Source of the DNA: Aquificota bacterium
Lineage (GTDB): Bacteria > Thermosulfidibacterota > Thermosulfidibacteria > Thermosulfidibacterales > B14-G1
Direction of reading: 5' to 3'
Assembly: GCA_015486015.1 (NCBI GenBank)
Contig: WFSL01000022.1
Location: 1-64,000, forward strand
Length of the DNA stretch: 64,000 nt
Part shown: positions 1 through 15,040 of the stretch, piece by piece
Layout of the letters: the number at the start of each line of letters is the position of its first letter
Position numbering within the stretch: position 1 is the stretch's first letter
The notes under the pieces: model-generated
What the model was told of the DNA's origin: nothing
The model's database searches: none
The model's input: only the letters and a program-made list of their open reading frames with translations
Translations under genes and position numbers: made by a program

Positions 1-1655
1 ACAAGCACTTCCACCAAACCCCTCCCCCTCTCTAAGGGGATACCTCCCATTCGAAAGACCTCCTCTACAGTGGGTGGTGCAAAACCTGCCTCCCTGAACC
101 TCCCCCTTATGAAGGACAGCCACTCCTGCTCTTGGATGGAGAGGCGTGGCCCTGCACCTGGCAACGAGACACCCTCAGGCCGTAACACCACTTTCCCATC
201 CCGATGCATCTCTGCCAGCAGAGCTGCGAACACTTTTCCGTCCCCATCCCATACCCGATGGGCCAACTCCTCCTTAGAGACAAAGGCCCTTAAGGGATTT
301 TCTTGGAAGAAGGCCTCCACGGACCTCAGCACCTTCTGCCTTAGCCCCTCTACCGTCTGGGGATGGAAATACCTCCCTTCCAAGACACAAACCCCTTCGC
401 CCTCAAGGGTACGTAACACATCCGCCGTGGTGCCCCTGCGTGAGGTCTTGAGCAGTAGATCCTGAAACACCATGCCCTTCTCCCCTGCCCACCGGAGAAA
501 CAGGAGGAGCCTGCCCTTATCGGATTCACCCTTCAGCTCCTGGAGCCTGCCTGCCAACACCCTCCTCCTCGCAGGCTCATCAGAGGGGTTGCTATCCAAG
601 ATTCTCCCCCCTCCCACAGTCACCACCGGAGAGAAGGAGCGTACCACAAAGGGGTCGCCAGGGGCGGTCACAACGGGACCTTCCAGATGAAGTCTCACCT
701 CAGCCTCATCCCCGGGTTTTAAGACGTCCCTATCCAGGAGTTTCACCCTCCCCATGGTCTCACCAGTACCCCAGTGAAACCGGACCCGAGACCAATTCTT
801 CATGGCTCTAACCTGAGGTAATAGCCTGAGGGAGAGATCCACAAAGGTAGATGGGGCAAAATGTCCAGGGGTAACCAGCACGTCCCCCCTTCTCAGTGCG
901 CCCTTCTCCGCCCCCGCCAGGTTTATGGCGGCCCTACATCCAGGGGGCACCTCTTCCACAGGACCTCCATGGATCTGGAGGCCCCTTACCCTCACCCTAA
1001 TCCCCTTAGGCAGAATCTCCAAAGTGTCTCCCACGTGCGCCACCCCAGAATAGACCGTACCCGTCACCACAAGGCCAAACCCCTTGATGTGAAAGGCTCT
1101 GTCAATAGGCATCCTGAAGGTCTCACTTGCCCCTTTTGGAGGGACCTCAAGGCACAGCCTCAAAAGCTGTGCCTTGAGGTCCGCAATGCCCCTCCCTGTG
1201 ACCGCCGAGGTGATCACCACAGGAGCACCCTCAAGGAAGGTCCCTTGGAGAAATCCCTCCACATCTTGGCGCACCATCTCCAGCCACTGGGCATCCACCA
1301 AATCCGCCTTTGAAAGAACCACCAACCCCTTCTGCACCCCCAAAAACTGGCAAATGGCAAGATGTTCCCTCGTCTGGGGCATCACCCCCTCATCAGCCGC
1401 TATCACCAGCATCACCAAATCAATGCCCGAGGCACCTGCTACCATGTTCCGCACAAAGCGCTCATGCCCCGGTACATCCACAATCCCCACCTTCACCTCT
1501 GGTGAAAGCTCCAGATGGGCGAAACCAAGATCTATGGTGATGCCCCTCTCCTTTTCTTCTCTAAGCCTGTCCGTATCTATTCCTGTGAGGGCCTTCACCA
1601 GCTCCGTCTTACCGTGATCAATGTGCCCAGCAGTCCCCACCACCACGTACCTCAT
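1..1655 (-). CDS. selB: Selenocysteine-specific elongation factor SelB (3' end cut by window edge)
   Basis: SelB is the GTPase that carries Sec-tRNA(Sec) to the ribosome at UGA codons marked by a SECIS hairpin. Translating the minus strand from the ATG at 1655 gives [17 protein letters not shown], with the P-loop GHIDHGKT near residue 10 and the G3 motif DVPGHE near residue 60, followed by EF-Tu-like beta-barrel domains and the first of the C-terminal winged-helix modules. About 551 codons are present and the frame runs off base 1, so the last winged helices that bind SECIS lie outside. The start overlaps the selA stop by 4 bases (ATGA), so selA and selB are translationally coupled. The family assignment is firm. 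Confidence 0.95.
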
Positions 1656-3049
1656 ACAAGTGCCCTCCCTAAGGAATCTGCGAGGGGCCCTACCTCATCC
1701 TCCCTGACGGTACGCATATCCAGTAGAAAGGCCTCGTGCTTTATCCTTCCCACCACAGGCAAAGGGGCAGCACGTGCCCTTTCATCTATGAACTCGGGAG
1801 AAAACTCCTCATGTTTCACAGCCACCACCACTGTGGGCATCTCCAACAAGGGGAGAGCACCCCCACCTACATAGGAACAGTCCTCCATAAGAGTAAAAGT
1901 GTAACTGGAAGGAAGCCTCTCCATCAACAGGGAGACAAGCCTCTCGGCCCTTCCCCTCAACACCCCCAAAGGCGTGGAGAGACACTTAAGAGTGGGAAGC
2001 CTCTCTGGAAGGCGCTCCGGTTCCATGTACAGGCGCAGGGTGGCCTCCAACCCAGAAAGGGTAAGCTTATCTATGCGCAGCGCCCGATTGAGGGGATGCC
2101 GCCTCACCCTCTCAACAAACTCTGGCTCACCCAGGATGACCCCTGCCTGAGGTCCACCGAGAAGCTTATCACCACTAAAGGAGAGAAGGCTCACCCCAGT
2201 CTTAAGGCTCTCCTGGACCGTGGGCTCCTTGGGGAGACCATAGGTCCTGAGGTCTATCAGATTCCCAGAGCCTAAATCCTCATAAACAGGAAGTCCCCTC
2301 TCCCTACCCAAGGCAACCAGCTCCCGCAAAGGAACCGAGGCCGTAAAGCCCAAGACCCTATAGTTACTGGGATGCACCTTCATGAGAAGAGCAGTATCCT
2401 CCCCAATAGCCGCCTCGTAATCCCGAAGGTGGGTCTTGTTCGTGGTACCCACCTCCCTGAGGATGGCACCTGAGGCAGCCATAACGTCCGGCATCCGGAA
2501 GCTCCCCCCAATCTCTATAAGCTCACCCCGAGAGACCACCACCTCCTTCCCCTTGGCCAAGGCAGCTAAGACCAAAAGGACTGCCGCAGCATTATTGTTC
2601 ACCACCATGGCTGCAGGGGCCCCAGTCACCTTGCGCAGTATACCCACCACATGAGTGTACCTAAGACCCCGTTCCCCCTTTTCCAGGTCATACTCCAGAT
2701 TGGAGTAATTCAGGGCGATCTCTTCCATCTCTCTCCAAACCTCCCGGGCCAAGGGGGCACGGCCCAGATTGGTATGCAGCACCACACCCGTGGCATTGAT
2801 TACCCGCCTCAGACTGGGAGCAGCAAAGATATCTATACGATCCTGAAGCTCACGAACAATGGAAGAAGGCTCTACCAACCCCCTATCCCCTCTTCCATTC
2901 ATGATCCTTTGGCGCCTCTCTTCCAACACCCTTCTTAGCGCATCCACCACCATCCACCGGGGATACCCCTGAAGCACCTCCTGGACCTCAGGGTAATTCA
3001 ACAATGCATCCACCTGAGGAATCTCCTTAAGGAGCTCCCTACCCATCAT
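1652..3049 (-). CDS. selA: L-seryl-tRNA(Sec) selenium transferase SelA
   Basis: SelA is a PLP enzyme that converts Ser-tRNA(Sec) to Sec-tRNA(Sec) using selenophosphate. At 465 residues it has the family length. The N-terminal helical region (IPQVDALLNYPEV) resembles the domain that recognises tRNA(Sec), and the PLP lysine lies in SFSGDKLLGGPQAG near residue 295. Conserved blocks VINATGVVLHTNLGRAPL and RYTHVVGILRKVTGA are visible. ATG at 3049 follows a GAGGGG element. It is the first gene of a selA-selB pair; the selenophosphate donor enzyme SelD is encoded 56 kb away in this same window. Confidence 0.97.
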   Translation of the reverse strand: MMGRELLKEIPQVDALLNYPEVQEVLQGYPRWMVVDALRRVLEERRQRIMNGRGDRGLVEPSSIVRELQDRIDIFAAPSLRRVINATGVVLHTNLGRAPLAREVWREMEEIALNYSNLEYDLEKGERGLRYTHVVGILRKVTGAPAAMVVNNNAAAVLLVLAALAKGKEVVVSRGELIEIGGSFRMPDVMAASGAILREVGTTNKTHLRDYEAAIGEDTALLMKVHPSNYRVLGFTASVPLRELVALGRERGLPVYEDLGSGNLIDLRTYGLPKEPTVQESLKTGVSLLSFSGDKLLGGPQAGVILGEPEFVERVRRHPLNRALRIDKLTLSGLEATLRLYMEPERLPERLPTLKCLSTPLGVLRGRAERLVSLLMERLPSSYTFTLMEDCSYVGGGALPLLEMPTVVVAVKHEEFSPEFIDERARAAPLPVVGRIKHEAFLLDMRTVREDEVGPLADSLGRALV

Positions 3050-3497: not shown

Positions 3498-4052
3498 ATG
3501 GGGCTTGTGGGGATCTTCGCTCAGGTGGGCAGGGATCTTTACCACGGCGGATTGGTTACTTCCCATGGGGGGAACCTCAGCCTCCGGAGGAAAGGCGAAA
3601 TGGTGATCACTAAGACAGGGGCCATGCTGGGGCACCTCTCAGATAACGACCTGGTAAGGGTGCCTTTGGACGGAGAGATCAGCCCTCAGGCCTCCAGAGA
3701 AGCACCACTCCATAGGGCCGTGTACCTTGCTACTAATGCCAAGGCCTTAGTCCACGCTCATCCTGCCCATGCAATAGCCCTCTCCTTCTCTCACGACACT
3801 ATAGTGCCGCGCGATGCTGAAGGTCTTTACACACTTCCAACCGTTCCTGTGGTAGAAGTGGCCCAGCCTATTGGCTCCCAGGAGCTGGCTCAGGCTGTAG
3901 CCCAAACGCTGATGGATGCCCCAGTGGTAGTAGTGAGAGGACACGGGACCTTCGCTAAGGGCGAAGATCTGTGGGATGCTTTACGCTACACATCGGTGCT
4001 CGAGACCTCCTGTGAAATCCTCTATCTATTGACCCTTAGCCAGCCCCTCTAA
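3498..4052 (+). CDS. Class II aldolase/adducin family protein (fuculose-phosphate-aldolase-like)
   Basis: A 184-residue protein of the zinc-dependent class II aldolase family, which cleaves small phosphosugars such as fuculose-1-phosphate or ribulose-phosphate derivatives. Visible family features are TSHGGNLSLR near residue 27, ITKTGAMLGHL, the HAHPAHA metal-binding histidines near residue 88, and RGHGTFAKG carrying the third histidine. ATG at 3498 is chosen because GGAGGG lies just upstream and the family begins here; the frame is open further upstream but that part lies inside the SRP RNA. The gene end overlaps the convergent lptG by 17 bases. The actual substrate cannot be told from sequence. 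Confidence 0.85.
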   Translation: MGLVGIFAQVGRDLYHGGLVTSHGGNLSLRRKGEMVITKTGAMLGHLSDNDLVRVPLDGEISPQASREAPLHRAVYLATNAKALVHAHPAHAIALSFSHDTIVPRDAEGLYTLPTVPVVEVAQPIGSQELAQAVAQTLMDAPVVVVRGHGTFAKGEDLWDALRYTSVLETSCEILYLLTLSQPL

Positions 4053-5103
4053 GCAACACTCCAGCCACTATCACGGCCGCCACTGGGGGAAGGGGAGCCG
4101 CTATCATAGAAGGTAGCAAGCCCGTGCGGCCAAGAAAGGCGAGGAGGGAAGTAGCACCCCAATACAGGACAAGAACACCAGCAGTGATGGCCACCCTCTT
4201 CCATCCCCCCTCCCTGGGCGACCTTAAAGAGAGGGGGAATACCAATAACACAAGGGCAATAGGGGAGAAGGCCAAGGCAATCCTCTGATATAGTTCCATC
4301 TTGAGGTTGGGGACCTTGTAACCTTCCTCCTCCATAGCCCGAAGATAGTCCCTCAGCTCATGGTATGTCATCTCCCAGGGCTCCTTCTTCTCACTCAGGA
4401 GCCCTTGGGGAGTGATGCTCAAGGCCAGGGGCAGTGTTTTTGGCCTATCTTCCTGCACTTGGTCGTTAAGCACCTTCAGGAAGATAGGTTTCACCATCTG
4501 CCAGGTCCCTTCCCGCCAGACTACGGTATCGGCAGTGGCAAGGGCCTCTATGTGTCCATTCTCCACCCATACACACTTTGCCTTTCTAAATAGCATCCTC
4601 CTTTCGTCAAAGAAGCGGATAAAACAACTGACATTCTGTTGCTTTATCCACAGGTCGGTGTATCGGGTAAAGGCAGCCTCTTTATTCCGGTTTATCTCTA
4701 CCTTCTCGGCGAGTGCAGCCTCTGTGAGATGGAGAGGGACAACATAGAGATTCCAGGGGACAAGGGCTATACTGGCAAGCACCGCCACAATGAGGAAGGG
4801 CACAAGCACCCTCTCCGTCCTCATACCCAGCGCCCGGAGGGCAACCAGTTCGAAGTTCTTAGAGGCGATGATGAGGTATGTGAGGGTGGCGAAGAAGAAA
4901 GCCAGGGGTAAGACATCCCTGATCACCTGGGGCTGGTAGTGGATAAGATAAACGGCTACGGCCTTGAGGGGTGCCTTATTCTCCAAGACATTATCCAAGA
5001 TCTCGAAAAAGAGGATAAGGGTGTATATGGCCTCCAGCACCACCCAAACACCCAGGAGGATGGCAAGATACCCCTTGAGGATGTATCGGTCTAAAATTTT
5101 CAC
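4036..5103 (-). CDS. lptG: Lipopolysaccharide export permease LptG (YjgQ family)
   Basis: One of the two inner-membrane subunits of the LptB2FG ABC extractor that lifts lipopolysaccharide out of the inner membrane. At 355 residues it has family length. Three hydrophobic helices occupy roughly the first 120 residues (YLAILLGVWVVLEAIYTLIL and following), a periplasmic beta-jellyroll spans the middle (about 130-265) and three helices close the C-terminus (IALAFSPIALVLLVFPLSL onward). Its start overlaps the stop of the lptF-like gene by 4 bases, the usual lptF-lptG arrangement. No lptB is seen in the window. Confidence 0.92.
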   Translation of the reverse strand: MKILDRYILKGYLAILLGVWVVLEAIYTLILFFEILDNVLENKAPLKAVAVYLIHYQPQVIRDVLPLAFFFATLTYLIIASKNFELVALRALGMRTERVLVPFLIVAVLASIALVPWNLYVVPLHLTEAALAEKVEINRNKEAAFTRYTDLWIKQQNVSCFIRFFDERRMLFRKAKCVWVENGHIEALATADTVVWREGTWQMVKPIFLKVLNDQVQEDRPKTLPLALSITPQGLLSEKKEPWEMTYHELRDYLRAMEEEGYKVPNLKMELYQRIALAFSPIALVLLVFPLSLRSPREGGWKRVAITAGVLVLYWGATSLLAFLGRTGLLPSMIAAPLPPVAAVIVAGVLLRGAG

Positions 5104-6833
5104 AGACCCACCTTTTCAGACCTCATATAAAGGATTGCGCCTCCCCCTGCCCCCAGGATGATATCGGGGAGCCAGGCCCCAAGGAAGGATGATATCAGGC
5201 CCTTCATGGCCATATTCTGGGAGATGCTAAGGAGGACGTAGTAGAGGAGGAAGAGCCCAAAAGTAAAGAGGAGCCCTGTCCATCTCTCTGCCCTGGGGAG
5301 GAAAGGCCCCAAGGCCAGGGCCAGGAGTGCGAAGACCACCGTGGAGAAGGGCAGTGAGAAGCGCTTGTAGAGGTGGTTGAGCACATCCCAGTAGTGCTCG
5401 GGCCCTCGCTGCTTTTCCCTTTGGACCCGCCTTAGGAGCTGCGGTAGGGTGAGCTCCTTCTTGGAAAAGCCCTTAAATGAGGGCCCCAAGGCAGGGAGCA
5501 GGAACCGATACTTGTCGAAATTTAGGAGATTGTACCTCCTTCCCCCCACCGTGAGGATCTCACCATCCTTCAGAATAAGGATAAAAGAGTGGGTCTCCGG
5601 ATCCACCTTGAGCCTACCCTTCACAGCGGAAAGCACCCTGATCCCCCCATCCCCATTCTCATACAAGAGCAGGTCCCTCAAGTGCGTTTCATGGAGATGA
5701 GAGCTATAAAGCCATAAATGGCTTGAAAGCTTAATAAACCTCCCCTCCTGAAGCCCCAGCCCCTTAGAGGAATAGGCCATCCTCATTACGGAACCGTAGA
5801 ACGCTTGATTGGCCAGAGGGCCCACATATAGGGAGAAGAAAAGGGCAACCGCGGTTACCCAAAAGGCCAGGATCAGGATAGGCTGGGCTATCCTCCTGAG
5901 GCTTATGCCGAGGGCCTGTGCTGCTATGAGCTCCGCATCCGAGGAGAACCTGGAAATGGCCACCACAGAGCCAAAAAGAAAAGCGGGTGGAAGGACTAAG
6001 CTTATGGAAGCCACCGTGAGGGAAGCAACAATACTAAGCAGGAGCGTGAGAGATCCACCCCTGAGAAAGACGAGCAGATCAGTTATCCTACCTATGAAAA
6101 GGAGAAGGACAAATATACCTATACCGAGAATGAACGGCGATAAAATCTCCCGAAGCACATAACCATCTATGATCCCCCTCCAGGGCCATAGGAGAGATGC
6201 CCTTGCCCTCCTATATTCCCGCATGGGCACAGGCCTTGGCTGAGGAGGTGCCACCTCTGGCACCGGCGGTGAAGGGATCTCCTCCTGTTTAGGTGTCTCC
6301 TCTGGCATCGGCGGTGTCCTATGGAAGGCCCTTTCGATCCCCTGCAGCACCTTACGGTCAGCATGGCACACTATGCCAGGGGGCATGATCTCTGTTAAAA
6401 GGCAGGCTGCTTCAAAAGGATCCCCAATCTTGTAAGGATCATAGCCCGGGAGGAGGTAAGCCACCCGAGTTAAGTCAAGGCGCTTCAGGTCCTCCCGGAG
6501 CGCTTCTAACTCTCCTGCTATAACCTCTAATGACAAATCCTGTTCAGGTCCCAAGCCATAGAGGAGGAGCCAGGAAGACTTCCACAGGCCCAAGGTAGAG
6601 ATGAGCACCCTCTCACCCTGGGCACCAGTGATCTCCCCCTCCCTACGATCTAAGAGGAAGTTCAGGGTATGATTGATGTAGCCCAGGATACCCCTCTGAG
6701 AAAAGGGATAGGCAATGCCTATCACCACCACATCCGCCTCCACATCCTGAAGGGGAGAGTCTGTCAAGGTCCAAGTAATGGGGGTTACAGGCCGCTTTGT
6801 CCCTTTCTTCATTCTCAGGCATCCCTTTAGCAT
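5100..6833 (-). CDS. lptF: LptF permease with N-terminal aminopeptidase (M17 N-domain)-like extension
   Basis: A 577-residue protein. Residues about 222-577 are a full LptF/YjgP permease (GYVLREILSPFILGIGIFVLLL, then VLPPAFLFGSVVAISRFSSDAE, a periplasmic domain and three C-terminal helices). Residues about 20-170 are extra: they resemble the macro-like N-terminal domain of leucyl aminopeptidase (VEADVVVIGIAY, LLLYGLGPEQDLS, helix VIAGELEALREDL, RVAYLLPG). Neither the M17 metal-binding catalytic domain nor its motifs are present. A proline/glutamate-rich linker (about 172-203) joins the two. ATG at 6833 overlaps the RDD gene; ATG at 6812 is an alternative that leaves both domains intact. A start at internal Met 204 would give a plain LptF, but the upstream frame is continuous and well conserved in pattern, so I favour the fusion. 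It probably acts with LptG. Confidence 0.85.
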   Translation of the reverse strand: MLKGCLRMKKGTKRPVTPITWTLTDSPLQDVEADVVVIGIAYPFSQRGILGYINHTLNFLLDRREGEITGAQGERVLISTLGLWKSSWLLLYGLGPEQDLSLEVIAGELEALREDLKRLDLTRVAYLLPGYDPYKIGDPFEAACLLTEIMPPGIVCHADRKVLQGIERAFHRTPPMPEETPKQEEIPSPPVPEVAPPQPRPVPMREYRRARASLLWPWRGIIDGYVLREILSPFILGIGIFVLLLFIGRITDLLVFLRGGSLTLLLSIVASLTVASISLVLPPAFLFGSVVAISRFSSDAELIAAQALGISLRRIAQPILILAFWVTAVALFFSLYVGPLANQAFYGSVMRMAYSSKGLGLQEGRFIKLSSHLWLYSSHLHETHLRDLLLYENGDGGIRVLSAVKGRLKVDPETHSFILILKDGEILTVGGRRYNLLNFDKYRFLLPALGPSFKGFSKKELTLPQLLRRVQREKQRGPEHYWDVLNHLYKRFSLPFSTVVFALLALALGPFLPRAERWTGLLFTFGLFLLYYVLLSISQNMAMKGLISSFLGAWLPDIILGAGGGAILYMRSEKVGL

Positions 6834-7201
6834 TTAAGGACCCGGGTGCCCGCCAGGATGTCGTGCCATCCCCGCTTCTCCCTATCCCTCAGTATCCAGA
6901 GAATACCCAACCCCAAGGAGACAACATCCAACAGGTACCCTATGGTGCGTACAAGGGCCCTGAAATATCCCACGGTATAAAATCCCCATGGATCAGTAAC
7001 CCTGATCCCCATGGCCCACTTTCCCAAGGTTTGCCCCCTGTATCCCGTCCAGAAGGTAAAATATAGGATGGCTACCGCCAGCCAGGGATACGAAACCTCC
7101 GAAGGCCACACCAAAGATGAGCCCTCCCAGATCACCCCTAAGAGGAGGATATCAAGGATGAAGGCCAAGATCCGGATGAAAAGACCAGCCTCTCTCTTCA
7201 T
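6827..7201 (-). CDS. RDD family membrane protein
   Basis: A 124-residue membrane protein with the RDD pattern: AGLFIRILAFILDILLLGVI at the N-terminus (the Arg...Asp-Asp type motif), a second helix YPWLAVAILYFTFW, the turn GQTLGKWAMGIRV, and a third helix before the C-terminal DREKRGWHDILAGTRVL. RDD proteins are small integral membrane proteins of mostly unknown or transport-related role. It lies 6 bases after lolA and overlaps lptF, so it belongs to the envelope operon. Confidence 0.85.
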   Translation of the reverse strand: MKREAGLFIRILAFILDILLLGVIWEGSSLVWPSEVSYPWLAVAILYFTFWTGYRGQTLGKWAMGIRVTDPWGFYTVGYFRALVRTIGYLLDVVSLGLGILWILRDREKRGWHDILAGTRVLKC

Positions 7202-7207
7202 GCCTAC

Positions 7208-7828
7208 CTATGGTTGGGAGATCCTCACATCCGGAGGGAGGATTATCTCGAAGGTCTTAGAGGGGATGGCAGCATTGACCTTGATATGCCGGAAGGAAAC
7301 AGCATTCAGGTTGCCTAAGGAGTCCAAGGTTTCTACCTTCTTTATAAGGAGACTCTTGGGGTCAAGGTAAACTATCACCTTTTGAATGGGGCCATGGGTA
7401 TCTACAGGGGTAAGGGTGAGAGTGGATTGCCCTTTCCCCCCCTCCTTTACGGTATAGTACCTCTTTATCTGGTCAATGAGGGAGAAAAACGGCCCCTTGG
7501 TAACAATGGCCTCCTTGTCCAATTGACCCTTAACAGCCTCCCTGTTGACGGGATCATAAAGAACAAAGAGGTCACCGTTGGTCCATACTATCTGGGGCTG
7601 GGGGGTTTTATACTCCCACATGCTCTTACCTGGCACAATGTACACCCTGCCCGTGTAGGTCATCCTCCTTCTCACCCCCACAGTGGTCTCCTGAACAAAG
7701 TCGGCCTGAATGGAGTGGATCTCGCTGTAAGAGGCCTTCAACCTCTCCATAAGGGATGTACCCCAAGCAGCCGTACCCATGAGCAGGACCAGCACCCCTA
7801 TGAAGATGCCCCTTCCAATCCTACTCAT
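7208..7828 (-). CDS. lolA: Outer-membrane lipoprotein carrier protein LolA
   Basis: Periplasmic chaperone that ferries lipoproteins from the LolCDE exporter to the outer membrane. The 206-residue product has a signal peptide (IGRGIFIGVLVLLMGTAAWG) and the LolA core: LKASYSEIHSIQADFVQET, GRVYIVPGKSMWEYKTP, LFVLYDP and a C-terminal FRHIKVNAAIP. ATG at 7828 is chosen because GAGGAG lies 7 bases upstream; it overlaps the end of dnaB by 8 bases. LolA next to lptF/lptG suggests a shared envelope-assembly operon. Confidence 0.92.
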   Translation of the reverse strand: MSRIGRGIFIGVLVLLMGTAAWGTSLMERLKASYSEIHSIQADFVQETTVGVRRRMTYTGRVYIVPGKSMWEYKTPQPQIVWTNGDLFVLYDPVNREAVKGQLDKEAIVTKGPFFSLIDQIKRYYTVKEGGKGQSTLTLTPVDTHGPIQKVIVYLDPKSLLIKKVETLDSLGNLNAVSFRHIKVNAAIPSKTFEIILPPDVRISQP

Positions 7829-9161
7829 TAGCATACTCCTCAAAGGTGGTGTACTCCTTCAAGAAAGTGAGCTTGAAAGAGCCCGTAGGCCCGTTGCGCT
7901 GCTTGCCAACAATGATCTCGGCGATGCCCTGGTACTCCGGCTTATGCTTGTTGTAAACCTCTGGGCGATAGATGAAGACGATGAGATCGCCGTCTTGCTC
8001 AATGGCGCCTGACTCCCTCAGATCAGAAAGCTGGGGTCTTTTGTCCTGCCGGGACTCCACCGCCCTCGAGAGCTGTGAGAGGGCCACTACAGGGGTGTTA
8101 AGCTCCTTGGCTAACGCCTTGAGAGAACGCGATATCTCCGATATCTCCTGCTGACGGCTCTCTGGCCTGCCTCTCCCCTTCATGAGCTGCAGGTAGTCTA
8201 TGATCACAAGGTCCAGACCATGATCGGATTGGAGCCTCCTGGACTTTGCCCTCACCTCTAAGACAGAGGAGGCAGGGGTGTCATCCACATAAATCCTGGC
8301 CTGAGAGAGCTTGTCTGCGGCCCTGATCACCCTTTTCCAATCCTCCTTAGAAAGGATACCTGTACGGAGCTTGTGGGACGGGACCTTTGCCAGGCTGGAG
8401 AGCATCCGAAACGCCAATTGCTCTTTTGACATCTCCAAAGAGAAGAAGGCTACAGTTTTCCCCCCCTTCAGGGCAACGTTTTGGGCAATGTTGAGTGCCA
8501 GGGCTGTCTTACCCATGCTCGGTCGGGCAGCAATGATTATGAGGTCGGAGGGCTGAAGCCCCGAAGTAAGGCGGTCAAACTCACTGAACCCTGTGGCGAT
8601 GCCTGTAACAGCTTCACGCCTCTGGGAAAGCATCTCCAAGGTTTTAACGGACGCCTTTACCAGCTCCTGAGAGGTGATGAAGTCCTCCTTGATCTTCCTT
8701 TGTGAAACGGAGAATATCACCCTCTCCGCCTCGTCCAAAACCTCTTCTCCCTCCATCCTCCCATCATAGCATAAGGAGATAACATCGTTGGCCGCCGAGA
8801 TGAGCTGACGGAGCAGGGCCTTCTCTCGAACAATCCTGGCATAGTGAGGGGCATGTGCAGAGCTGGGCACGGTCTCAGTGAGCTCCATGAGGTACTCAGT
8901 GCCCCCAATGGCTTCTATCTCCTCCCTCTGGCTCAGGAGGTCACTAACAGTGATGAGATCTATAGGCTGCCCCCTCTGAAAGAGCTCCAACATGGCAGAA
9001 AAGATAATCCTATGTTCCCTCTTATAGAAATCTTCAGGCGTGACGTTCTCCAAGACCCTCAGAAGGGCATTATTATCCAAGAGGATGGACCCCAAGACAC
9101 TCTGCTCTGCCTCCACATTCTGTGGAGGGAGCCGCAGTTCCTGGGCAGTGCTACCCTTCAT
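7821..9161 (-). CDS. dnaB: Replicative DNA helicase DnaB
   Basis: Hexameric 5'-3' helicase that unwinds the fork and recruits primase. The 446 residues contain the N-terminal helical domain (PQNVEAEQSVLGSILLDN), the RecA-like ATPase with Walker A ARPSMGKTALALN near residue 215, Walker B VIIDYLQLM and the arginine-finger region DLRESGAIEQDGDLIVFIYR. The length matches the intein-free form. It starts one base after the rplI stop, the widely conserved rplI-dnaB pairing. Confidence 0.97.
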   Translation of the reverse strand: MKGSTAQELRLPPQNVEAEQSVLGSILLDNNALLRVLENVTPEDFYKREHRIIFSAMLELFQRGQPIDLITVSDLLSQREEIEAIGGTEYLMELTETVPSSAHAPHYARIVREKALLRQLISAANDVISLCYDGRMEGEEVLDEAERVIFSVSQRKIKEDFITSQELVKASVKTLEMLSQRREAVTGIATGFSEFDRLTSGLQPSDLIIIAARPSMGKTALALNIAQNVALKGGKTVAFFSLEMSKEQLAFRMLSSLAKVPSHKLRTGILSKEDWKRVIRAADKLSQARIYVDDTPASSVLEVRAKSRRLQSDHGLDLVIIDYLQLMKGRGRPESRQQEISEISRSLKALAKELNTPVVALSQLSRAVESRQDKRPQLSDLRESGAIEQDGDLIVFIYRPEVYNKHKPEYQGIAEIIVGKQRNGPTGSFKLTFLKEYTTFEEYANE

Positions 9162-9162
9162 C

Positions 9163-9609
9163 TTACCCAGCCTCTATCACGTCCACCTGGACCTGGGCCT
9201 CCACCTGGTATGGAAGCTTCACCTTTATTAGATAGTGCCCCGTAGTCCTTATGGGCTCTTCTATAACGATCTTTTTCCTGTCCACCTTTATCCCCTCCAT
9301 CTCTAAGGCGTCAGCGATGTCCCGGGTAGTAACCGATCCAAAAAGTCTCCCCTCCTCCCCCGCCTGCTTCGCCACAACCACACGCGTTTGCGAGAGACGC
9401 TCCCCCAGAGCCCTTATCCTCTTTGCTTCCTTATCCACCCTCCGCATGATCTCAGCCCTTTGCTTCTCCAGTCCCTTGACGTTTTTAGAAGTAGCAACCA
9501 GAGCAAGGCCCTTTGGTATGAGGTAATTCCTTGCATACCCCGGAGAGACATCCACCACAGTACCGGCTGGGCCTATCCCCTCCAGATCAGCCTTCAGAAT
9601 CACCTTCAT
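9163..9609 (-). CDS. rplI: 50S ribosomal protein L9
   Basis: The 148-residue L9 has the N-terminal rRNA-binding domain (MKVILKADLEGIGPAG, then SPGYARNYLIPKGLA), the long connecting helix rich in charged residues, and the C-terminal domain LFGSVTTRDIADAL. ATG at 9609 is set by the GGAGG element immediately upstream and by the invariant MKVIL start; an upstream in-frame extension is not conserved. It leads the operon rplI-dnaB-lolA-RDD-lptF-lptG behind a strong promoter. Confidence 0.97.
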   Translation of the reverse strand: MKVILKADLEGIGPAGTVVDVSPGYARNYLIPKGLALVATSKNVKGLEKQRAEIMRRVDKEAKRIRALGERLSQTRVVVAKQAGEEGRLFGSVTTRDIADALEMEGIKVDRKKIVIEEPIRTTGHYLIKVKLPYQVEAQVQVDVIEAG

Positions 9610-9638
9610 GGAAACCTCCAGCATGCATGAATACAAAA

Positions 9639-9668
9639 AATATACCGACCACTCTCTGGCTGTGTCAA
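9639..9668 (-). promoter_or_regulatory. Strong sigma70-type promoter for the rplI operon
   Basis: On the minus strand the perfect -35 TTGACA is followed after 18 bases by TATATT, about 30 bases ahead of the rplI start. This is the best promoter match for the six-gene leftward operon. Confidence 0.75.
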
Positions 9669-9683
9669 CCGAGAAGCCTTCCC

Positions 9684-12489: not shown

Positions 12490-12920
12490 GCAGGGCCAGA
12501 CTCCTCTTTCTTACAGGTTTGGGGGCCGGCTACTTCCCGTGGGCCCCTGGGACAGCAGGATCGGTGGTAGGGGTTGTACTCTACCTCATCCTCTGGCATC
12601 ATTGTGGATGGTTCCTCTATCTCCTGCTCACATTAGCACTATTCTTCGGGGGGGTGGTAGCATCGGATACAGGCCTCCAACTGTTTGGAGAGGAGGATAG
12701 CCCCCACATAGTCATAGATGAGATAGTAGGGTACCTCATCACCATGTGGGGGATCCGCTATGGGTTTTGGCCAGTGGCGTTGGGCTTCATCCTCTTCAGG
12801 ATATGGGACATATGGAAACCCTTCTCCTGGGCAGAAAAGATTCCTGGGGGATGGGGAGTGATGGTGGATGATGCATTGGCAGGTGTGCTGGCCAATGTGA
12901 TGCTGAGGATCATATTTTGA
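12486..12920 (+). CDS. pgpA: Phosphatidylglycerophosphatase A
   Basis: Dephosphorylates phosphatidylglycerophosphate to phosphatidylglycerol in the inner membrane. The 144-residue protein carries the PgpA motifs [17 protein letters not shown] near the N-terminus, [12 protein letters not shown] near residue 75, FRIWDIWKP and the C-terminal [12 protein letters not shown], with about four hydrophobic helices. ATGA overlap with pdxJ upstream and TTGA overlap with lptD downstream. Confidence 0.94.
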
Positions 12921-15040
12921 GAAAAGTGATCGTCATCCTTCTATTTGTCTTTGCCCTTGTGCCAAGGGGATGGGCCAAGGGTGGACGTATTAATATCTCT
13001 GCCAAGTCCATCAAGCGATACCCCCAGGAGCACCTGCTGGTGGCTCAGGGAGAAGTAGAGATCACCTACAAAGATGTGAAGCTTACAGCTGACAAGGTAA
13101 GCCTCTATACCACAACAAAGGACCTTATCGCAGAGGGAAACGTCACCCTATATCAGAAACAGGACTACCTCAAGTGCGACAGGCTGGAGTTTAATCTCTA
13201 TTCGAAAACGGGGGTGGCCTACAGGGCAAAGGGCTACTTCCACCCCTTCTACTATGTACAGGGGAAGAAGATAGAGAAGGTGAGCAAAAGGCGATATATA
13301 GTAGAAGAGGGGACATTCACTACCTGTGCCCCAGGGAAAGTTTGCAAGAAGGCTCCTGCGTGGTGCTTCAAGACAAAGAGGATGACGGTAGATGTAGGGG
13401 GATACGCCAGGGGGAAATCCGTCTCATTTTGGATCAAGAAGATCCCTGTACTTTATACCCCCTACATCAGGGTGCCGGTGTATCAGGAGAGGAAGACAGG
13501 TTTCCTTACGCCCCGGCCCGGCTACTCGTCTACTAAGGGCTTCTTTCTACATATCCCTTTCTTCTGGGCCATATCGGAAAGCCGAGACGCAACCATCACC
13601 GTGACCCCATATACAAAGAAGGCTATTAGGGGTACATTGGAATACAGGTACGTCATTGACAAAGAATCCAGGGGGTACTTCTTAGGAGACTACTACCGAA
13701 GAGCGCACCCCAAACGCAGGAAGTGGTCCATCTACTTCGAACATAACCAGTGGCTTAAAAACGATTGGCGCCTGCTGGCAAAGGGAGACATCAGGAGCGA
13801 TAACAGGTATGCCAGGACCTTTGGGGAGAATCTGGAGAAGAGGGTAGAACGCTACACCGACTCCTACGTGACCCTCACCAAGAACTGGCACCATACCCAC
13901 TTCTACCTTGACCTTAGAGGGAAGAAGGATCTCATAGACAAGTTCAGTGAGAGCACTTATAAGATGCCAGAGTGGAAGGTCTCTATTACACCCACCCCCT
14001 TCTTTGGCCTTCCCTTCTACCTGGAAGCGGATAACTCGCTATTGAGCTACGAAAAGAAGAGCACCTCCATGCATCTCAGCCACAAGCTTACCCGCTTGGA
14101 CCTCCACCCTGCCGCCTCTCTGCCCCTGAGGATAGCCCCATGGTTTAGCATCACCCCCAAGGTGGGATTGAGGGAAACCTGGTACAGCAAGAGCCTGAAA
14201 GAGGGGAATGAGAAACACCTAAGGCATGCCTCCCTCAGCCGCTTCCTTCCCAATATAGGGGTGGCATTGAGGGGGCCCCAGATAGAGAGGTTGTTTAAGC
14301 TGAAGGGCGAGAAAAGGATTAAGCATACAATCATACCCGAGATCCGATACACCTATATCCCACCCAAGGACCAGCATAATATTCCATACTTCGATCTGGA
14401 GGATTATGTCCCCCCCCAGGATATGTTCCTCTTTTCGCTCACTAACTGGGTCTATCTCTACACCCCAAAGGGGGGCAGGCGGTTGGCGAAGGTGAGAATA
14501 GAAGAGGGGTACAATAACCACTTTTATAGAAAAACGTGCCCTACCAAGAGACCTTTCACCGACCTACTGGTGGACGTAGACACAGACATACTGCCCACAG
14601 TAAGCCTGGATACTCAGGTGCGATACAGCGTCTATGGCAGGGGAATCACCTCCTGGGATACCCAGCTAAATCTAACCAGGGGAATATTCAGATTCAATGG
14701 GAGCTACCATTACAAAAAGAGGCCTGAGGAGCGTTTTGCGATACTGGAGCCTGGAATCACCTTAGGCCCATGGAACCTATGGGGGGCTGTGAGGTACGAT
14801 CTCAAAAAGTGCTTTACGCGAGAGAAGGAGATCAGGGCTATCTACCAGCAGGAGTGCTGGGCCGCTACGTTGGATTATATCTACATAGACAACCGTTGGA
14901 ACGACGCCCCCAACGAAAAGAGGCTCACCTTCTTTGTAACCTTGAAGGGTATAGGGAGTGTGGGAAGGAAAAAATATTCCTCTTCTCCCGAACAAAGTGG
15001 TTTTATCTTTATGCCTGCATGGGGTCCAAGCGGTTGGTGA
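12917..15040 (+). CDS. lptD: LPS-assembly outer-membrane protein LptD (OstA/Imp)
   Basis: Outer-membrane translocon that places lipopolysaccharide on the cell surface. The 707 residues contain a signal peptide (VIVILLFVFALVPRGWAKG), an OstA/LptA-like jellyroll (LVAQGEVEITYKDVKLTADKV, LIAEGNVTLYQ) and a C-terminal beta-barrel rich in alternating aromatic strands (GYFLGDYYRRAHP, WSIYFEHNQWLKNDW). Start is TTG at 12917 overlapping the pgpA stop. The pairs of cysteines (near residues 134-145) may form the disulfides seen in the family. Partners lptF and lptG are 8 kb to the left; no LptE is recognised here. Confidence 0.9.
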   Translation: MRKVIVILLFVFALVPRGWAKGGRINISAKSIKRYPQEHLLVAQGEVEITYKDVKLTADKVSLYTTTKDLIAEGNVTLYQKQDYLKCDRLEFNLYSKTGVAYRAKGYFHPFYYVQGKKIEKVSKRRYIVEEGTFTTCAPGKVCKKAPAWCFKTKRMTVDVGGYARGKSVSFWIKKIPVLYTPYIRVPVYQERKTGFLTPRPGYSSTKGFFLHIPFFWAISESRDATITVTPYTKKAIRGTLEYRYVIDKESRGYFLGDYYRRAHPKRRKWSIYFEHNQWLKNDWRLLAKGDIRSDNRYARTFGENLEKRVERYTDSYVTLTKNWHHTHFYLDLRGKKDLIDKFSESTYKMPEWKVSITPTPFFGLPFYLEADNSLLSYEKKSTSMHLSHKLTRLDLHPAASLPLRIAPWFSITPKVGLRETWYSKSLKEGNEKHLRHASLSRFLPNIGVALRGPQIERLFKLKGEKRIKHTIIPEIRYTYIPPKDQHNIPYFDLEDYVPPQDMFLFSLTNWVYLYTPKGGRRLAKVRIEEGYNNHFYRKTCPTKRPFTDLLVDVDTDILPTVSLDTQVRYSVYGRGITSWDTQLNLTRGIFRFNGSYHYKKRPEERFAILEPGITLGPWNLWGAVRYDLKKCFTREKEIRAIYQQECWAATLDYIYIDNRWNDAPNEKRLTFFVTLKGIGSVGRKKYSSSPEQSGFIFMPAWGPSGW

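Follow-up and report, generated by a model that had tools for sequence, protein, structure and literature searches.

LptF is a subunit of an essential transporter that varies rather little between bacteria. In the solved LptB2FG complex, residues Ile4, Tyr6 and Leu7 in TM1 of LptF touch LptB (PMC5548808). Leucyl aminopeptidases of family M17, such as PepA, possess an N-terminal domain (Peptidase_M17_N, PF02789) that belongs to the Pfam macro clan CL0223 (PMC6500376).

The protein described here resembles LptF of the LptB2FG permease (PF03739; TIGR04407) in its complete LptF core, in the adjacent lptG gene and in a genome that also encodes LptB, LptD and LpxC, but it differs from LptF elsewhere by about 215 extra N-terminal residues, which comprise an M17N-like domain and a linker. 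The extra domain is similar to Peptidase_M17_N over its whole length, in profile as well as in fold. Unlike an M17 leucyl aminopeptidase, however, the protein has no catalytic half and is fused to a membrane transporter. Stand-alone M17N-like proteins, encoded next to dgt in its own family and order and next to ribH-nusB in many bacteria, are likewise single domains without a catalytic half, but they are soluble and unfused. ADP-ribose-binding macrodomains are alike in fold class only (about 10-16% identity), and M17 N-domains are the closer match. No report of an LptF-M17 fusion or of any other cytoplasmic addition to LptF was found in the open-licence papers that were searched, and the fusion is considered a new arrangement of domains in a known transporter subunit.

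Organization of the fused gene and its neighbourhood

The following features were assigned in the window, i.e. the whole stretch of 64,000 nucleotides that was analysed:

5100..6833, minus strand: fused gene of M17N-like domain, linker and LptF (open frame, Pfam, orthologues of the same architecture, start context)
6318..6779, minus strand: M17 N-domain-like (macro-fold) domain, about residues 19-172 (hhalign with shuffled controls, two-way profile searches, fold search)
6189..6317, minus strand: Pro/Glu-rich linker, about residues 173-215, Arg-rich at its end (composition; varies between genomes)
5103..6188, minus strand: LptF core, residues 216-577 (PF03739, comparison with E. coli, published LptB contacts)
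4036..5103, minus strand: lptG, overlapping the lptF stop codon (PF03739 match at 4048-5088, open frame)
6827..7201, minus strand: gene of an RDD-family membrane protein, directly upstream of the fused lptF (Pfam PF06271)
7208..7843, minus strand: lolA (Pfam PF03548)
12917..15040, plus strand: lptD, a further component for LPS export encoded in the window (Pfam PF04453)

A sequence-only reading of this DNA had proposed that a single frame of 577 codons joins an M17 N-domain-like module through a Pro/Glu-rich linker to a complete LptF. The frame (6833..5100, minus strand) indeed contains 577 codons without interruption. Pfam LptF_LptG matched residues 225-569 with an E value of 2e-66 (224.6 bits) and was covered from model position 2 to 352 of 353, so that the LptF half is full-length, and among the 43 residues of the linker (about residues 173-215) there are 13 Pro and 6 Glu. 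From genome to genome the linker varies in both length and sequence; it is the fastest-diverging part of the protein, with 43% identity between G002 and G003. The protein scored 194.7 bits with the NCBI LptF equivalog TIGR04407, below the cut-off of 230, and 84.6 bits with the LptG model, so that the LptF model fits better. It was treated as the LptF of a divergent lineage on the basis of synteny and the PF03739 match, with a predicted role in LPS transport.

The fused gene is part of the run dnaB-lolA-RDD-lptF-lptG, in which lolA and the RDD gene were assigned by Pfam and the first gene was identified as dnaB from its sequence. Loci L041, L043 and L044, which come from two further families of this order, show the same succession of lolA, RDD-like gene and lptF, followed by lptG in L041 and L043; LptF of all three loci is without the extra domain. 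As the genome of the window organism encodes LptB, LpxC and LptD, a functional LPS export route is plausible from its gene content.

The small RDD-family gene (RDD-like in relatives) between lolA and lptF was present in the window (6827-7201, minus strand) and in L034, L036, L041, L043 and L044. This lolA-RDD-lptF arrangement spans three families of the order, and the RDD protein is a possible unrecognised partner in LPS export. The window also contains a full-length gene for SelA, the selenocysteine synthase (1652-3049, minus strand), and the organism may use selenocysteine.

Conservation of the fusion and its start codon

The same architecture of M17N-like domain, linker and LptF was found in two genomes of a second genus, in proteins of 608 aa (L036) and 638 aa (L038). 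In a MAG of the same genus as the window organism, the N-terminal half and the LptF half each stop at a contig end within proline-rich sequence, which fits one gene split by the assembly. A scan of named genomes with the window protein as single query matched only the same-genus MAG. The dN/dS ratios between G002 and G003 were 0.15 for the N-domain and 0.17 for LptF; these were the usable values, the synonymous sites of G000 and G001 being saturated or nearly so. Judged by these ratios, the N-domain is under purifying selection close in strength to that on LptF.

The frame could be an artefact if two genes had been run together during assembly or annotation, or if translation of LptF began internally, around Met204. 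In favour of this, the assemblies are drafts made up of many contigs, and Met204 of the window protein is preceded by AAGG. However, independent genomes of two genera carry the fusion with different linkers, and Met204 is missing from the aligned orthologues. An assembly chimera and an internal start at Met204 were both rejected on these grounds, and an artefact of this kind is hardly credible. A conserved Met near the start of LptF was also absent among the aligned orthologues, and a separately translated LptF is therefore unlikely. The sequence-only reading had named a strong start at Met204, with no protein from the part before it, as one result that would speak against its proposal; with Met204 absent from the orthologues and the N-domain under purifying selection, the fusion stands. 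The M17N-LptF fusion is real and conserved in the bacterial family of the window organism.

Met8 (ATG at 6812) is more likely than Met1 to be the start codon of the fused gene. Met1 overlaps the last bases of the RDD gene that precedes it, and in L034 and L036 the orthologous proteins begin where Met8 of the window protein aligns; Met8 was preferred for both reasons. The sequence AAAGGGATGCCTGAGA precedes this ATG.

LptF/LptG were present in 335 of 386 sampled bacterial genomes. The M17N-LptF architecture was not found outside the window's family in this sample; since the order is represented by only nine genomes, and every other family by few, further cases may exist.

The N-terminal domain and its stand-alone paralogues

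In the window copy, Pfam Peptidase_M17_N (PF02789) matched residues 64-129 with 18.6-20.8 bits, just under the cut-off of 23.4, which was exceeded by the orthologues of L036 (30.5) and L038 (25.0). A profile built from nine relatives (A1) was searched against the 386 genomes. Most of what it retrieved outside its own order were M17 aminopeptidases, matched in their N-terminal parts (frames of about 485-570 aa); the remainder included some stand-alone proteins of roughly domain size. Profile A1 was aligned by hhalign with M17 N-domains at a probability of 98.0 and an E value of 1.8e-13 over 123 columns, while 20 column-shuffled profiles and one reversed profile, used as controls, all gave a probability of at most 1.5%. 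In the reciprocal search, a profile made from the ribH-nusB-linked proteins only (A3) retrieved the window domain at 5.8e-9; an LPG motif is common to this set and the window domain.

The AlphaFold model of the N-domain, obtained with two input sequences, was of moderate quality (pLDDT 64.5, pTM 0.65). The best solved match to this moderate-confidence model was 3h8f, residues 1-183 (Z 15.4), and 1gyt gave a Z of 14.9; both are N-domains of leucine aminopeptidases. Macrodomains, ADP-ribose-binding ones included, ranked next with Z values of about 12-13. A profile search of PDB sequences found M17 aminopeptidases only, with E. coli PepA on top. Judged from profiles and the modelled fold, the N-domain is homologous to the M17 aminopeptidase N-domain and has a macro-like fold. 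The resemblance suggested from the sequence was thus confirmed, and the strong fold match leaves the fusion reading intact.

An involvement in DNA binding is described for the N-domain of E. coli PepA (PMC6245113). This role, together with the rank of PepA as the best PDB sequence match, would allow the fused domain to bind DNA as well and to tie sites of LPS export to the nucleoid. The domain of the window's family is acidic, however: the fused copies have a pI of 4.6-6.2, compared with 9.5 for the N-domain of PepA. PepA-like DNA binding is disfavoured by this charge and was regarded as very unlikely.

The M17 catalytic domain (PF00883) was found neither in the window protein nor in its genome assembly, in agreement with the proposed lack of a catalytic half, and it was not detectable in the six genomes G000-G005. 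It was present in two of three genomes of the order's third family. Given that this catalytic domain is missing from G000-G005 and that the nearest relative found is a stand-alone paralogue, an origin from a decayed M17 enzyme of the organism's own genome is unlikely.

This stand-alone paralogue occurs in four genomes of the window's family and is 46-49% identical to the window domain; a fifth locus, in another family of the order, encodes a copy with 21% identity. At all five loci (L035, L037, L039, L040 and L042) the paralogue is adjacent to and divergent from a gene for dGTP triphosphohydrolase (dgt). The dgt gene was confirmed by NCBIfam in L040 and L042; in L035, L037 and L039 it was identified from its sequence. 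The four fused domains formed one group in a nine-row tree with moderate support (85/88), the root of this tree being uncertain and the outgroup branch very long. The dgt-linked copies have kept a conserved C-terminal stretch (RDILHRIHYHCRGPFSYLL-like), whereas the fused copies have lost it. The paralogues, the grouping of the fused copies and the lost C-terminal stretch fit a duplication followed by fusion and a change of role, and the fusion probably arose once, as judged from the tree.

In L040 the paralogue lies at 8001-8564 (minus strand) and 8623-9672 (plus strand) is at the dgt locus. An SbcCD/Rad50-like pair is found on the opposite side, and similar frames were seen in L035 and L037. 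Stand-alone M17N-like proteins of about 175-200 aa adjoined ribH and nusB in 12 of 12 loci matching the test (L078, 5118-5672; L079, 5019-5543; further loci considered are L080, L085-L088 and L090-L096). Frames of stand-alone size were present in about 35 of 366 sampled genomes, which makes this a widespread family. To our knowledge, no function has been assigned to the dgt-linked or the ribH-nusB-linked proteins.

The sequence-only reading had also raised the question of stand-alone M17 N-domains as neighbours of lptF elsewhere. No M17 match was seen by eye within 5 kb of LptF/LptG among the matches listed in the sampled genomes. In E. coli K-12 (L084, 4441-7319) the M17 aminopeptidase gene pepA is the divergent neighbour of lptF-lptG. 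As this adjacency was not seen in the sampled genomes, it is perhaps due to chance, and a general M17-lptF neighbourhood is at most a weak hint.

Placement beside LptB and possible roles of the domain

Tyr225 of the window protein aligns with Tyr6 of E. coli LptF, one of the LptB-contacting residues (E. coli VIIIRYLVRETL, window GIIDGYVLREIL), and the stretch just before the LptF core is rich in Arg. The domain is thus attached immediately before the LptB-contacting residues and behind it follows an Arg-rich stretch; therefore, from homology to the solved LptB2FG and the positive-inside rule, it should be cytoplasmic and tethered beside LptB. The placement next to LptB proposed earlier is supported by this homology.

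Homology, synteny and the tree suggest a duplication, probably a single one, of a stand-alone gene for an M17N-like protein of macro fold in the family's ancestor. One duplicate would then have been placed in front of LptF, with a disordered Pro/Glu-rich linker joining it to the LptF N-terminus. The product would be a complete LptF with a non-catalytic cytoplasmic domain, flexibly tethered near the LptB ATPase dimer. The domain may hold a partner protein or a ligand near LptB2FG and so tune or localise LPS export. Because the linker is long, rich in Pro and variable in length, it suits a tether better than a rigid lever, and a docking or regulatory module was therefore favoured. Duplication and fusion yielding such a tethered, non-catalytic module is the best explanation of the whole and in our judgement a fairly probable one. 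If natural selection has maintained a module beside LptB, LPS export would include an unrecognised control or docking step.

The fused domain might alternatively be a sensor, as the sequence-only reading had proposed, in which a nucleotide or nucleotide-derived metabolite bound in the macro-like pocket controls the passage of LPS by way of LptB2FG. Consistent with this are the macro-like fold, for which ADP-ribose-binding macrodomains rank among the next matches, and the positions of the stand-alone paralogue beside the dGTP triphosphohydrolase gene and of related proteins beside ribH-nusB. In addition, a QGALGYLNHTL-like loop is strongly conserved in the family and may be the counterpart of macrodomain loop 1. 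The closest fold is nevertheless the M17 N-domain, for which we know of no small-molecule ligand, and the long and variable linker makes rigid gating less likely. Such a sensor was considered possible, though rather unlikely. A still wider reading, which we hold to be doubtful, is that M17N-like domains, whether encoded beside dgt or ribH-nusB or fused to LptF, represent an as yet unrecognised class of non-catalytic regulators responding to a nucleotide-linked signal, and that in this lineage one was recruited to couple LPS export to cytoplasmic metabolism through LptB2FG.

M17 N-domains participate in multimeric enzymes, and the fused domain could merely stabilise, oligomerise or help to fold LptF, without a regulatory role. 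The loss of the conserved C-terminal stretch from the fused copies, with which part of the old function would be gone, agrees with such a role. On the other hand, the domain experiences purifying selection of nearly the same strength as LptF, fused and stand-alone copies alike retain the surface motifs GYxNHTL and PGYDPY, and LptF of other lineages manages without the domain. A purely structural role is thus improbable, and the tethered docking or regulatory module is preferred; the fusion would also provide a handle on the widespread stand-alone M17N family.

Matches to both LptF and LptG occurred within one frame in G226:C4:22219-24492 (864 aa) and in G041:C9:157-2574 (834 aa), which suggests that single-chain LptF-LptG proteins may exist in other lineages.
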